Of a DNA stretch of 12,866 bases, positions 1,318 through 6,714 are shown one piece after another. This DNA comes from an uncultured Collinsella sp. (GTDB taxonomy: Bacteria > Actinomycetota > Coriobacteriia > Coriobacteriales > Coriobacteriaceae): contig CAMQPJ010000015.1 of assembly GCA_947003675.1 (NCBI GenBank), positions 1 to 12,866 of the forward strand, written 5' to 3'. Each line of letters opens with the position of its first letter. Within the stretch, counting starts at the first letter, position 1. Under the pieces are notes generated by a model. It searched no databases and was not told where the DNA came from. It saw nothing but the letters and a program-made list of their open reading frames with translations. Position numbers and translations under genes: made by a program.

Positions 1318-2520
1318 ATGCAGATTACCTCAGGCCTGCCTGAAGGCTTTAACGCCGGCGCGTACGACATGATCGTTGTCGGCGCCGGTTATGCCGGTGC
1401 CGTTTGCGCCCGCCGTCTTGCCGAAACCATCGGCTATCGTGTTGCCGTTTTGGAGCGCCGTAGCCACATTGCGGGCAATGCCTTCGACTGCACTGACGAG
1501 GCCGGGATCCTGGTCCACGAGTATGGTCCGCATATCTACCATACCTTTAACGAGCGCGTGCATAACTTCCTGTCGCGCTTTACCAAGTGGACGGACTACC
1601 AGCACAAGGTGCTCGCCAACATCAACGGTACCCTTATGCCCGTGCCCTTTAACCATGCGAGCCTTAAGCTTGCCTTTGGCGATGAGCGCGGCGAGGAGCT
1701 GTACCAAAAGCTCGTGGAGACCTTTGGCAAGGACGTCAAGGTGCCCATCATGGAGCTGCGCAAGAAGAACGACCCGGATCTTGCCGAGGTCGCCGATTAC
1801 GTCTACGAGAACGTCTTTTTGCATTACACCATGAAGCAGTGGGGCCAGACGCCCGATCAGATCGACCCCTCGATCACCGGCCGCGTCCCCGTCTTTGTGG
1901 GCGATGACGATCGCTACTTCCCGCAGGCTCCTTTCCAGGGCATGCCGCAGGACGGCTATACCGCGCTGTTCGAGCATATGCTCGATCATGATCTGATTGA
2001 TGTGTTCTGCGACGTGGACGCCCGTGACCTCTTTGAAATCGACGAGACCACCGTCAAGATTGACGGCAAGGTCTATGGTGGTGAGATCGTCTACACCGGT
2101 CCACTCGACGAGCTGTTCAACCTCGACCTGGGCGCGCTGCCGTACCGCACGCTCGATATGAAGTTCGAGACGCTCGATATGGATCAGTTCCAGCCCGTGG
2201 GCACCGTCAACTACACCACGAGCGAGGACTACACGCGTATCACCGAGTTCAAGAACATGACCGGTCAGGTCCTGCCCGGCAAGACCACCATCATGAAGGA
2301 GTACTCCAAAGCCTATACGCCCGGCTCGGGTGAGACGCCGTACTACGCCATTCTTGAGCCCGAGAACCGTGAGCTCTACGAGCGCTATCTTGAGCGTGTC
2401 CAGAACCTGACGAACTTCCACCCGGTGGGTCGTCTGGCCGAGTATCGTTACTACGATATGGACGCCGTGACCAATTCCGCCCTCGATCTTTCGGATGAGA
2501 TTATCGCCTGCCATGCATAA
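1318..2520 (+). CDS. glf: UDP-galactopyranose mutase
   Basis: This 400-residue flavoprotein interconverts UDP-galactopyranose and UDP-galactofuranose in the cytoplasm, supplying the donor for galactofuranose in surface glycans. The FAD-binding GAGYAG motif is at 22-27. Other family blocks are VHEYGPHIYHTFN (66-78), YTGPLDELF (259-267), LPYRTL (274-279), KEYSKAY (327-333), PYYAI (341-345) and GRLAEYRYYDMD (371-382). These match the FAD and substrate-binding regions of known Glf enzymes. The ATG has AAGGAG 5 nt upstream. This start leaves about 16 residues before the Rossmann strand, more than in E. coli Glf; an internal Met at 18 has no ribosome site. The gene overlaps the next by 8 nt, so the two are very probably co-transcribed. 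The assignment is secure. Confidence 0.96.
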   Translation: MQITSGLPEGFNAGAYDMIVVGAGYAGAVCARRLAETIGYRVAVLERRSHIAGNAFDCTDEAGILVHEYGPHIYHTFNERVHNFLSRFTKWTDYQHKVLANINGTLMPVPFNHASLKLAFGDERGEELYQKLVETFGKDVKVPIMELRKKNDPDLAEVADYVYENVFLHYTMKQWGQTPDQIDPSITGRVPVFVGDDDRYFPQAPFQGMPQDGYTALFEHMLDHDLIDVFCDVDARDLFEIDETTVKIDGKVYGGEIVYTGPLDELFNLDLGALPYRTLDMKFETLDMDQFQPVGTVNYTTSEDYTRITEFKNMTGQVLPGKTTIMKEYSKAYTPGSGETPYYAILEPENRELYERYLERVQNLTNFHPVGRLAEYRYYDMDAVTNSALDLSDEIIACHA

Positions 2521-3544
2521 AGTCATAACATTCGGTATTCCCTCGTATAACGCCGCCAAGGACATGGACCATTGCATCACCTCCATCTTGGAGGGGAGCA
2601 ATTACGCTACCGATATCGAGATTATCGTGGTGGACGACGGATCCAAGGACGAGACGGCCGCCAAGGCCGACGAGTGGGAGGCCCGTTATCCTGGAATCAT
2701 CCGCGCGGTGCACCAGGAGAATGGCGGCCACGGCATCGCCGTTCTTTCGGGCCTGCGCGAGGCGCAGGGCACCTACTACAAGGTTGTCGACTCGGACGAC
2801 TGGCTCGACGGTGCGGCGCTTTCGACCATGCTGTCGATTTTGCGTGGCTTTGAGGAGCGCGACCAGCGCGTCGACCTGTTTATCTCGAACTACGTGTACG
2901 AGAAGGTTTACGAGGGCACGCATACCGCTATTGGCTACAAGTTTGCCCTGCCGCGCAAAAAGATTTTCTCTTGGGACCAGATCGGACACTTCCGTCCCGA
3001 TCAAAATCTGCTCATGCACAGCCTGTGCTATCGCACCGATGTACTGCGCGAGTCCAATCTGCCTATGCCGGCACACACGTTCTACGTGGATAATATCTAC
3101 GCATACGTGCCGCTGCCGCGCTGCAAGACCATGTACTACGCCGACATCGACCTCTATCGCTACTTTATCGGTCGCGAGGGCCAGAGCGTCAATGAGGCTA
3201 CGATGGTCAAGCGTCTGGGTCAGCAGTTCCGCGTAACGCGCATCATGATGGAATCGTTCCACCTGTACCAGGACGTCGAGTCCTCGCGTCTGCGTTCGTA
3301 CATGATGGGCTACTTCACCATGATGATGGCGATTTGCTCGGTGCTCACCAAGCTTTCCGAGGAAGATTGTGCCGATGAGCGCCTGAAGACGCTGTGGAAG
3401 GATCTGAAGGCTTACGACGAGCGCATGTATCGTCACGCGCGCTACGGCGTGGTCGGGATCTTCACCAATCTGCGTGGACGGGCCGGAGACAAAACTACAC
3501 TCGGCCTATACCATCTGGCTTCAAAGATCTTCAAATTCAACTAG
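2513..3544 (+). CDS. Family 2 (GT-A fold) glycosyltransferase
   Basis: This cytoplasmic enzyme of 343 residues has the hallmarks of glycosyltransferase family 2: an N-terminal strand ITFGIPSYN (5-13), the nucleotide-binding IIVVDDGS (37-44), and the metal-binding DSDD (93-96) followed by WLDG. No clear multi-span membrane region is present; only a moderately hydrophobic YMMGYFTMMMAI segment occurs late. I placed the start at the ATG at 2513, inside the glf stop region (8-nt overlap), because GT2 proteins begin just before the first strand. An in-frame ATG at 2495 would add six residues. Neither has a strong ribosome site, so translation is probably coupled to glf. Being next to glf, it may transfer galactofuranose or build the same glycan, but donor and acceptor cannot be read from the sequence. 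Its last codons are part of a large palindrome. Confidence 0.9.
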   Translation: MHKVITFGIPSYNAAKDMDHCITSILEGSNYATDIEIIVVDDGSKDETAAKADEWEARYPGIIRAVHQENGGHGIAVLSGLREAQGTYYKVVDSDDWLDGAALSTMLSILRGFEERDQRVDLFISNYVYEKVYEGTHTAIGYKFALPRKKIFSWDQIGHFRPDQNLLMHSLCYRTDVLRESNLPMPAHTFYVDNIYAYVPLPRCKTMYYADIDLYRYFIGREGQSVNEATMVKRLGQQFRVTRIMMESFHLYQDVESSRLRSYMMGYFTMMMAICSVLTKLSEEDCADERLKTLWKDLKAYDERMYRHARYGVVGIFTNLRGRAGDKTTLGLYHLASKIFKFN

Positions 3545-3721
3545 TGCAGAAACGCTCGGGTAACGGGGACCCCTGGTCCTTAACTTGCTACTTCGAACAG
3601 TCCTGCGCAAGACGGAGGCGCCACTGGCGCCTCCTTTGCGTGCGGAACTCGTATCAAGTTAAGGACCAGGGGTCCTCTGCTATGTCTCGCTTTGTGTCAG
3701 CAAACTGAATTTGAAGATCTT
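3524..3721. repeat. Concentric palindrome (element A) after the glycosyltransferase
   Basis: Three inverted repeats share almost the same centre, near 3622. The outer pair is 3524-3539 (within the last glycosyltransferase codons) and 3706-3721, 16 bp and perfect. The middle pair is 3567-3587 and 3655-3675, 21 bp and perfect, beginning GGACCCCTGG. The inner pair is 3614-3622 (GGAGGCGCC) and 3626-3634. Between the middle and inner arms lie ACAGTCCTG (3597-3605) and CGTGCGGAACTCG (3639-3651), both found again in element B. The transcript would fold into one long bulged hairpin in the 3' untranslated region. Confidence 0.85.
3614..3637 (+). terminator. Probable terminator of the glf operon
   Basis: GGAGGCGCC (3614-3622) and GGCGCCTCC (3626-3634) form a perfect 9-bp GC-rich stem with an ACT loop, followed by TTT. 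The T run is short. Termination may instead, or also, depend on the much longer enclosing hairpin of element A. It lies 70 nt after the glycosyltransferase stop. Confidence 0.5.
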
Positions 3722-3770
3722 GGACGCGCGGTACACAGGGGCCTGGGCTGAAGGGGATCTTGTTGAGTAG

Positions 3771-3893
3771 GTTGCCCGGTGGAGCTTGGTTATGTTTGTC
3801 GCGAGTTCCGCACGAGCCGAAGAGCACTTAATGTGCTCTTCGTGCGAGCCAGGACTGTAGAGCAGCAAACATAACCAAGACCCACCGGGCAAC
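3771..3893. repeat. Concentric palindrome (element B) after the S58 peptidase
   Basis: Arms of 28 nt at 3771-3798 and 3866-3893 are complementary at 26 positions: 12 bp, a 2-nt mismatch, then 14 bp. Inside, CGAAGAGCAC (3818-3827) pairs perfectly with GTGCTCTTCG (3833-3842) over TTAAT, centred with the arms. Between arms and inner stem are CGAGTTCCGCACG (3802-3814) and CAGGACTGT (3850-3858), the reverse complements of the two core strands of element A. The element begins 13 nt past the stop of the minus-strand peptidase gene and probably serves as its 3' untranslated structure and terminator. Confidence 0.85.
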
Positions 3894-3906
3894 CGGTCGA
3901 GTAAGG

Positions 3907-4908
3907 TTACTTCGCGGCACCCGGGATTCCGTGGGAGGTTTTGGCAGTTTTGGCTCCGTTTACGATGGCGGTCTGTAGGGCCCTTACGGCGAGCATGCCC
4001 AGCAGGTCTAGGGGTACGGCGGCGCTTGCCTGAGCACCCAGTTTGCCGCTGGCGAGGGTGTAGATGGTGTCGCCGTCGTTGGTGGTGTGCGTGGGGCGGA
4101 TGGCGTGCGCATAGGCGTCTGCTGCCATCTGGGAGACCTTGGTGGCCTGCGCCTTAGTGAGCTTCACGTTGGTGACGATGCAGCTGATGGTGGTGTTGGT
4201 GCGGTCGAGCGGCATCTGCATAGATCCGGCGGCGGCAAAGGCTGCGAGCTCCATGTCGACGATCTGGTCGCTATCTGCTGCAGCGCGCATGCCAGCGATC
4301 CATTCACCGGTGAAGGGGTCGACGACATTGCCACAGGCGTTGACCGAGACCACGGCGCCCACCTTAACAGGGCCGAGTGCCACGGCGGCGGCTCCAAGGC
4401 CGGCCTTCATGCAGGTGGCGGGACCCATGAGCTTGCCCACGGTGGCGCCGGTGCCGGCGCCCACATTGCCCTGCTCGAGCGTGGTGGGGGTGTTGTCGAG
4501 CGCCTCGCGCACGGCGGAGATGCCAGCCTCAATGTCGGGGCGTACGGTGGGGTCGCCAAAGGCGAGGTCGAAGATGCAGCTAGAGCACACGATGGGCACC
4601 TGCGTGGGGCCGACGGGAAGGCCGATGCCGCGGCTCTCGAGCTCGCGGGCGACGCCGCTTGCGGCCTCCAGACCAAAGGCCGATCCACCCGAAAGGCAGA
4701 CGGCGTGGACCTTGTCCACGGTGTTCTCGGGACGCAGCAAATCGGTCTCGCGCGATGCCGGGGCGCCGCCGCGAACGTCAACGCCGCCCGTTGCGCCTTC
4801 GGTTGCCACAATTACGGTGCAACCGGTGCCGGCCTCCTCGTCCGTATAGTTGCCAAAGCAAAAGCCATCGACATCGCAAACGTCAATGGCCTCAAGCAGT
4901 GTATCCAT
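3907..4908 (-). CDS. P1 family (S58, DmpA-like) peptidase
   Basis: This 333-residue protein matches the P1/S58 family of self-processing N-terminal-nucleophile hydrolases related to DmpA aminopeptidase and beta-peptidyl aminopeptidases. Conserved blocks seen are GATGGVDVRGGAPASRETDL (38-57), AVCLSGGSAFGLEAASGV (69-86), VPIV (104-107) before the FDLAFGD strand, and the glycine-rich GNVGAGTGATVGK (147-159) that surrounds the expected autocleavage and nucleophile region. I did not assign the nucleophile residue. No signal peptide is present, so it is cytoplasmic. Members hydrolyse short or unusual peptides; the substrate here is unknown. The ATG is preceded by AGGAG 7 nt upstream. It follows maf by 101 nt containing a terminator-like hairpin and its own leader hairpin, so it may be transcribed separately. 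Family call is strong, function weak. Confidence 0.9.
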   Translation of the reverse strand: MDTLLEAIDVCDVDGFCFGNYTDEEAGTGCTVIVATEGATGGVDVRGGAPASRETDLLRPENTVDKVHAVCLSGGSAFGLEAASGVARELESRGIGLPVGPTQVPIVCSSCIFDLAFGDPTVRPDIEAGISAVREALDNTPTTLEQGNVGAGTGATVGKLMGPATCMKAGLGAAAVALGPVKVGAVVSVNACGNVVDPFTGEWIAGMRAAADSDQIVDMELAAFAAAGSMQMPLDRTNTTISCIVTNVKLTKAQATKVSQMAADAYAHAIRPTHTTNDGDTIYTLASGKLGAQASAAVPLDLLGMLAVRALQTAIVNGAKTAKTSHGIPGAAK

Positions 4909-6312: not shown

Positions 6313-6612
6313 ATGATAGGCCTTAGGGTATTCGATCTTCTCGTTTTGCTAGTTGTATTTGGTGGTGTCGCGGCTGTTGCCTTTGCCGTTATCTTGAACA
6401 AGGAATCGTCGAATAAGCCTCAGCCTCCGCAGTCCAATTCGTACCAGCAAATGCCTCCTGTGCAACAGGTCCCGCCGACGCAGCAGGTGCCGACGGCAAT
6501 CGATGATGCTCAGCCAGTTGAGTCCGCTCATTTTTGCCCACAGTGTGGCTCAATGTTGGAGGCAAACGCATCCTTCTGCCAAAACTGCGGCGCTCCCGTC
6601 AACCACCAGTGA
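6313..6612 (+). CDS. Small membrane-anchored zinc-ribbon protein
   Basis: I do not recognise a named family. The 99-residue protein has one N-terminal membrane segment (about 7-28, rich in V, L, F and A), then a flexible Pro/Gln linker (35-68), then a C-terminal zinc ribbon HFCPQCG...FCQNCG with Cys75, Cys78, Cys89 and Cys92. The N-terminus is not a cleavable signal peptide by eye, lacking a cleavage motif. Positive and polar residues after the span suggest the ribbon is cytoplasmic. GAGGAG lies at 6297-6302, 10 nt before the ATG, a rather long spacing. The ribbon closely resembles the one ending the next gene, so the two may act in one process or share ancestry. It could bind zinc as a structural or protein-interaction module. 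Function is unknown. Confidence 0.75.
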   Translation: MIGLRVFDLLVLLVVFGGVAAVAFAVILNKESSNKPQPPQSNSYQQMPPVQQVPPTQQVPTAIDDAQPVESAHFCPQCGSMLEANASFCQNCGAPVNHQ

Positions 6613-6619
6613 TTTTTCT

Positions 6620-6673
6620 GGGACGGGGATTAGATAATCATTCGGTACACAATGATTATCTAATCCCCGTCCC
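6620..6673. repeat. Perfect 23-bp inverted repeat (element C)
   Basis: Arms at 6620-6642 and 6651-6673 are perfectly complementary, with an 8-nt loop CGGTACAC. It starts 8 nt after the small zinc-ribbon gene stop and is followed by ATTTTCATC, so it can act as a terminator for that gene. The inner 18 nt of the right arm (AATGATTATCTAATCCCC, 6651-6668) recur exactly at 8599-8616. Unlike elements A and B it has no internal core. Confidence 0.85.
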
Positions 6674-6714
6674 ATTTTCATCAGGCGTTACCGACTTTTT
6701 TGCGCGCTGGGAAT

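Follow-up and report, generated by a model that had tools for sequence, protein, structure and literature searches.

Rickettsia palindromic elements (RPEs) and their Wolbachia counterparts are palindromes of about 100-150 bp that form several families, some of them lying in frame within pre-existing genes, and the accessible parts of the sources place the peptides inserted by RPEs in solvent-exposed areas (PMC10969869, PMC3767692). The window analysed here, a whole stretch of 12,866 nt from an uncultured Collinsella sp., carries two palindromes, A and B, which we read, with a probability of roughly 0.7, as copies of a non-autonomous palindromic mobile DNA element of Coriobacteriales. The first-pass annotation had offered a link to a mobile element as an alternative. 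The present reading draws its support from copies that are dispersed, from others lying in frame within genes, from empty alleles that lack both arms, from loci at which sister genomes carry the element inverted or doubled, and from concerted change of the arms. The palindrome of the Coriobacteriales element, with a median length of 119 nt over 104 distinct-arm copies, falls within the ~100-150 bp of the RPEs, and it is likewise found both between genes and in frame in pre-existing genes; it belongs, however, to another phylum, and the likeness is one of description, drawn without sequence comparison. As far as the available parts describe RPEs, the Coriobacteriales element differs from them in being constant in its centre, with arms that are mostly unrelated, and in commonly standing in opposite orientation at one and the same site. 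By analogy it appears to work like an RPE, its nearly fixed centre with site-specific arms and its frequent inversion being new with respect to those RPE descriptions. We know of no mover for the RPEs. The element provides a second, independent-looking case of in-frame protein-coding palindromes after Rickettsia and Wolbachia, here in common gut bacteria.

QMITE2, a MITE of 3'-UTR type, sits mainly behind open reading frames, and SPRITE is terminator-like by its name, according to the part of the source that is accessible (PMC10969869). The Coriobacteriales element is similar to these and to MITEs in being small, non-autonomous and dispersed. A MITE is defined by its parent transposon and by terminal inverted repeats common to its copies, whereas the ends of the present element differ among copies (arms of different loci share no 14-mers within the Adlercreutzia genomes G252 and G294, save for a single tandem pair) and 1.9 Mb of loci contained no parent. 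REPs are tagged palindromes (GTAG, CGTC) of 20-40 bp, and a term search of the accessible text of the REP paper found no mention of Coriobacteriia or actinobacteria (PMC3733652). Like the REP/RAYT system, the Coriobacteriales element is palindromic, and its facing pairs ~260-285 nt apart recur, but several of the Coriobacteriia genomes that carry it have no Y1 match. Template switching, in the accessible part of its description, homogenises the arms of inverted repeats and inverts the spacer, yeast coding DNA included (PMC8604942). Homogenised arms and an inverted spacer, also in coding DNA, are features shared with the present case, but template switching is a mutational process to which any inverted repeat is subject, whereas the present case is an element whose centre is conserved. 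In the attC sites of integrons structure counts for more than the sequence of the arms, a hairpin formed by one strand is what is recognised, and the outer boxes are kept while the inside varies; the Coriobacteriales element also places structure over arm sequence, with the constant and variable zones reversed, since here the centre is constant. Literature searches, mostly outside subscription papers and preprints, returned nothing on these elements.

At the studied locus, the positions, strands and spacing of A and B are as the first-pass annotation had given them, with a gap between ACAGTCCTG and CGTGCGGAACTCG of 33 nt in A and 35 nt in B, and with A in sense behind a GT2 glycosyltransferase gene and B in sense behind a peptidase S58 gene (Table 1). 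When folded as single-stranded DNA, the hairpins of A and B reach z-scores of -8.9 to -11.2, and none of 200 shuffles folded equally well. The exact pair ACAGTCCTG / CGTGCGGAACTCG occurs in nine copies in the source genome and the reversed pattern, used as a control, in none, which together with the fold z-scores argues that the core pair is not due to chance. Two copies facing each other across about 200-285 nt of the same intergenic region are a recurrent arrangement in Collinsella, as at 52547 and 52816 of contig C6 in genome G007 and at 3597 and 3858 of the window. A second long hairpin of the window (6614-6680), with a stem of ~23 bp followed by TTTTC, lies just behind a zinc-ribbon ORF (6313-6612); the core strands are absent from it, weak Rfam miRNA matches map there, and it is probably a terminator.

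Table 1. Parts of elements A and B and the two neighbouring genes, in coordinates of the window.
Feature	Position	Strand	Remark
Element A left arm	3567..3591	+	25 nt, 96% complementary to right arm; orthologous arms co-vary
Element A core strand 1 ACAGTCCTG	3597..3605	+	divergence 0.042, 21 orthologous rows
Element A inner stem-loop	3606..3638	+	varies among copies, pairs well
Element A core strand 2 CGTGCGGAACTCG	3639..3651	+	divergence 0.026, 21 rows; last base is the start of the right arm
Element A right arm	3651..3675	+	
Element B 3' arm	3770..3798	-	29 nt, 93% complementary; L172 allele with unrelated arms
Element B core strand 2 CGTGCGGAACTCG	3802..3814	-	divergence 0.043, 21 rows
Element B inner stem-loop	3815..3849	-	
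Element B core strand 1 ACAGTCCTG	3850..3858	-	divergence 0.062, 21 rows
Element B 5' arm	3866..3894	-	
GT2 glycosyltransferase gene	2495..3544	+	stop 52 nt ahead of element A core
Peptidase S58 gene	3907..4908	-	stop 48 nt ahead of element B core

The search of related genomes that had been proposed yielded hundreds of copies, not just two. The exact core pair was present in 28 of the 58 genomes searched, the source genome counted, with a maximum of 18 copies per genome, and a covariance model built from 67 copies (R1) had matches in 52 of 110 genera and, counted by genome, in 141 of the 246 Coriobacteriia examined; because the R1 search scored no more than 15 candidates in each genome, its copy counts saturate. 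Exact cores lie almost wholly within two families, f1 and f2, taken as Coriobacteriaceae and Eggerthellaceae; among the matches listed are Collinsella, Adlercreutzia, Slackia, Parvibacter, Gordonibacter, Rubneribacter, Enterorhabdus and uncultured members of Coriobacteriaceae and Eggerthellaceae. Across the phylum, a slightly relaxed core matched 15 of 396 genomes, 14 of them in these two families, and the remaining match (G486) looks like an unrelated chance hit. Beyond the two families there is a single exact core in G050 (family f10, on a 3.9 kb contig) and a single one in G243 (family f5), and either could be contamination; apart from that core, f5 has matches to the R1 model, with no exact core in its genome G117. 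The copy in G243, together with its near flanks, is much like a Collinsella locus (L208 and L144), a resemblance due to either contamination or recent transfer. Weak candidate R1 matches, one to four per genome (E ~1e-4 to 1e-14), were seen in families f12, f13, f16, f17 and others of the class. Among viral contigs there were no exact-core matches, which speaks against a phage origin.

The copies are constant in the middle and vary towards ends that remain complementary, as the first-pass annotation had described from two of them: the arms are site-specific and their pairing is kept, and the element is neither limited to those two copies nor constant in its arms. Most of our counts use copies picked by exact core strings, so alignments of them overstate the fixity of the core, a bias of which the divergence figures for the window locus are free. 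The nearly fixed centre consists of an inner hairpin flanked by the two conserved core strands, which are largely unpaired, and a long arm lies on either side of it. Among 67 non-redundant copies, chosen by both core strings, the two sides were most constant at GCTC..ACAGTCCTG and at CGTGCGGAACTCG, respectively, and 24 of the 28 consensus pairs varied on both sides in some copy; pairs of the inner stem were G-C in some copies and A-T in others, G-T intermediates being few. An arm pairs with its own partner over a median of 28 positions, against 9 when partners are swapped (129 copies, 400 swaps). In Adlercreutzia the unit shared by copies has the edges GAGCTCA...TGAGCAC and ends abruptly, and unique arms follow (16 copies in G252, 13 in G294); arms of different loci within either genome have no 14-mer in common, one tandem pair excepted. 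The arms of loci L343 and L344 are alike (90% over 31 nt). When 11 arms were searched together in seven genomes, the matches listed comprised the arms themselves, usually also the partner arm and, for L343, the L344 arm, the rest being short or weak; no strong outside source from which arms could have been copied was among them. It is unusual for constraint to fix a centre and leave the arms free as long as they are complementary. In one copy, L070 (minus strand, 1022-1241), about 150 nt are inserted in the head of the element, between the core strands.

Orthologous Collinsella loci show how the arms evolve: they have been replaced with pairing retained, and chimeric alleles are present. At the window locus, seven of 20 orthologs have a B whose core is of a different type, with arms that are also unrelated where aligned (L172), and among the alleles of A one has collapsed (L171) and one has its head deleted (L175). 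Over 1504 paired positions in 51 non-overlapping ortholog pairs, we counted 58 mirrored and 54 single arm changes, whereas the single rate alone would give an estimated ~0.2 mirrored ones. The mirrored changes are confined to 19 of the 51 pairs and often come in blocks, several pairs derive from one locus, and very different or identical arm pairs were left out, so part of them could instead be due to recombination exchanging entire elements. The single changes yield G.T in 17 cases and A.C in 26. The same inequality is found on the plus strand among standing arm mismatches, with 51 G.T and 111 A.C at 99 loci (one copy each) and 64 and 105 in 110 distinct-arm copies. By class, A.C outnumbers G.T by 48 to 19 in sense copies, by 25 to 10 in antisense tandem copies and by 30 to 13 in copies inside genes, and two small classes, divergent (6 v 5) and edge (2 v 4), have no pattern of A.C bias. 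Because pairing in a plus-strand RNA should favour G.U, and G.T is not in excess, pairing is more likely restored on DNA; with mirrored changes about as frequent as single ones, homogenisation by template switching on DNA fits better than a plus-strand RNA stem.

Once the element is inserted, its DNA hairpin would promote template switching of the polymerase, by which one arm is copied onto the other and the centre would at times be inverted. Copying of this kind implies that arm sequence drifts fast while complementarity is restored, and it would make the element loci natural records of template switching. The centre would be kept through recognition by a trans-acting factor. The excess of A.C over G.T on the plus strand hints that the minus strand is the one folded and recognised. 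A more specific proposal, speculative and in our judgement rather unlikely, is a transposon whose enzyme would identify it by the shape that one of its DNA strands adopts, binding the minus-strand hairpin at the conserved inner strands and needing only paired arms, which would leave arm sequence free to change. The plus-strand A.C excess, which corresponds to wobble pairs on the minus strand, would then be the footprint of such a transposon.

Evidence on how the mobile element enters a site comes from the comparison of filled and empty alleles. Empty alleles without either arm were found on comparing L022 with L132, the HisH gene of G233 with that of G203, and the CooC-like and DUF512-like genes of G294 with those of G252, where flanks are 97-98% identical. 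In two near-isogenic cases the filled allele exceeds the empty one by more than the length of the palindrome, and it is possible that the empty alleles are deletions from a filled ancestor. GGGCCC flanks the element on both sides in G203, and other possible target-site duplications are ambiguous. Orientation is opposite at five of the 12 loci that can be read in both G252 and G294, and no transposition event was observed among the genomes compared. At one site (L352 in G294, L342 in G252), G294 has two tandem copies 154 nt apart and G252 a single one with unrelated arms and in opposite orientation. We infer insertion of the whole palindrome. It is unlikely that the centre alone inserts and that the arms are then made from the target by fold-back copying of one flank: the abrupt end of the shared Adlercreutzia unit where unique arms begin is compatible with this, as is the right side of L171, a perfect copy of the left, but the empty alleles carry neither arm, and the likeness of the L343 and L344 arms implies that arms can travel with the element. 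Target-templated arms, tested at empty sites, were unsupported.

The first-pass annotation had also observed that A and B have the same order and strand relative to the gene each follows, and had suggested as one possibility a protein-bound or processed 3'-UTR RNA under selection in its core. With genes called by a codon scorer at 99 loci (one copy each), the upstream gene was sense at 43 and antisense at 35, 17 copies were inside called genes and four at contig edges, so a sense position is not the rule; the Collinsella copies in this set were all called intergenic or edge. Some copies adjoin start codons. These mixed orientations, together with the in-frame copies, argue against an RNA 3'-UTR element, as do the lack of a T-run (behind the arms in two of 104 copies, against a background of 6%) and of a plus-strand G.U preference in every well-filled orientation class. 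Terminator-like sites numbered zero in the window between 3400 and 4050, and no Rfam covariance model matched close to its gathering score.

The core is indeed more constant than its surroundings in place. In 21 rows of window-locus orthologs, found by their flanks and not by the core and with none omitted, the core strands diverge by 0.026-0.062 against 0.137 for the spacer, 0.23 and 0.19 for the inner stems and 0.242 for a 13-nt flank, which could reflect function in place or gene conversion. By a relaxed pattern, A is retained at 18 and B at 19 of the 20 full-length orthologous loci, the B of L156 having a changed core. The Collinsella copies occupy orthologous loci of long standing and vary rather little in their core; this may point to a function where they stand and counts against the mobile reading. 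The element was found behind the GT2 gene in none of eight more distant Collinsella loci, seven of which have an ordinary hairpin there by eye, with a T-run in two (L177, L180). These data bear on a further possibility, that of a selected 3'-end element in which a hairpin behind stops protects or ends transcripts, the core is bound by protein and mobility is rare and incidental. Sense copies do lie near the stop (stop-to-core medians 54 and 58 nt, n=43), and a core 2-5 times more constant than the spacer at the window locus agrees with this possibility, as do the ordinary hairpins read in the distant loci; we nevertheless regard it as improbable, given the antisense upstream gene at 35 of 99 loci, the 17 copies in called genes, the scarcity of T-runs, the lack of terminator-like sites around the elements and the absence of a G.U preference in sense and antisense copies alike.

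A helper enzyme for the mobile element was not found by Y1 tests, among neighbour genes or in 1.9 Mb of loci. Nine of 28 tested genomes with R1 matches, high-copy ones included, had no match to a Y1 transposase, and three of 12 genomes without the element by R1 did, so the presence of a Y1/RAYT helper does not track the element. No recurrent transposase stood next to the element among the 25 of 138 neighbour families listed, and the 1.9 Mb of loci examined held neither a longer element with an ORF nor an autonomous parent with the same ends. MITE and REP families share ends or arms. That A and B are an ordinary MITE or REP-type repeat moved by a known transposase is very unlikely: the element is small, palindromic and dispersed, and intergenic or at an edge in Collinsella, but its arms are mostly unrelated and its middle is what the copies have in common, a RAYT-type Y1 match is missing from G252, G294, G267, G124, G128, G180, G005, G032 and G094, and Rfam gave no match near a gathering score.

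Copies inside genes are best seen in two Adlercreutzia genomes, where 12 of 29 lie in frame within nameable genes. In genus g70 of Adlercreutzia, called genes with coding signal to either side of the element enclosed 13 of the 29 copies, against one of 29 in g75; the thirteenth call of g70, L344, is probably a spurious ORF, doubtful because its ortholog L345 was called intergenic. The twelve named hosts are Mfd (two), HisH (two), TrmD, TsaB-RimI-TsaD (two), a dehydratase activator (two), an ABC-F protein, a CooC-like and a DUF512-like protein; NCBIfam confirms Mfd, HisH and TrmD, the remaining names being our reading of the sequence, and the CooC-like protein has no NCBIfam match. Another locus set contained ten loci with the element within a predicted, open gene. 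Only in-frame copies in a tolerant loop would survive in genes. Copies of the Eggerthellaceae type have 3.8 of six frames open, against 2.7 in mononucleotide shuffles (n=55), and those of the Collinsella type 2.3 against 1.8 (n=180), a smaller excess.

Two host genes illustrate this, and with many close genomes and filled and empty sites in HisH and TrmD both the mode of spread and the effects on proteins can be tested. The HisH linkers examined, from 30 of 53 matching genomes, are all multiples of three, with 18-57 nt in 20, 93 nt in one and 123-252 nt in nine. The nine long ones span eight genera, and the element was recognised by the relaxed core pattern in six and by peptide or fold in the other three; their arms are mostly unrelated, with L428 and L429 alike, and L431 and L432 alike by eye. 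The HisH insert (residues 147-185) is the sole segment with pLDDT below 50 in an otherwise confident predicted fold, so that for this one protein it is predicted to be disordered, as befits an exposed loop. Linkers in TrmD, taken from 30 loci and from L062, which duplicates the record L216, measure 12-318 nt. As delimited, 30 of 31 are a multiple of three, and exact cores were present in five genomes, in both orientations. Related yet different in-frame peptides (ASSAANAISPVGCRAERGLSERLS; ASSAATETVQW..) were seen in the TrmD linkers L218-L225, and the peptide ..PACPRTG..PRHA.GP in L216, L224 and L242; this variety suggests further repeat families in the same linker. In a histidine kinase-like protein, L369, the element and repeated CHPERSAEQPTP peptides share one linker.
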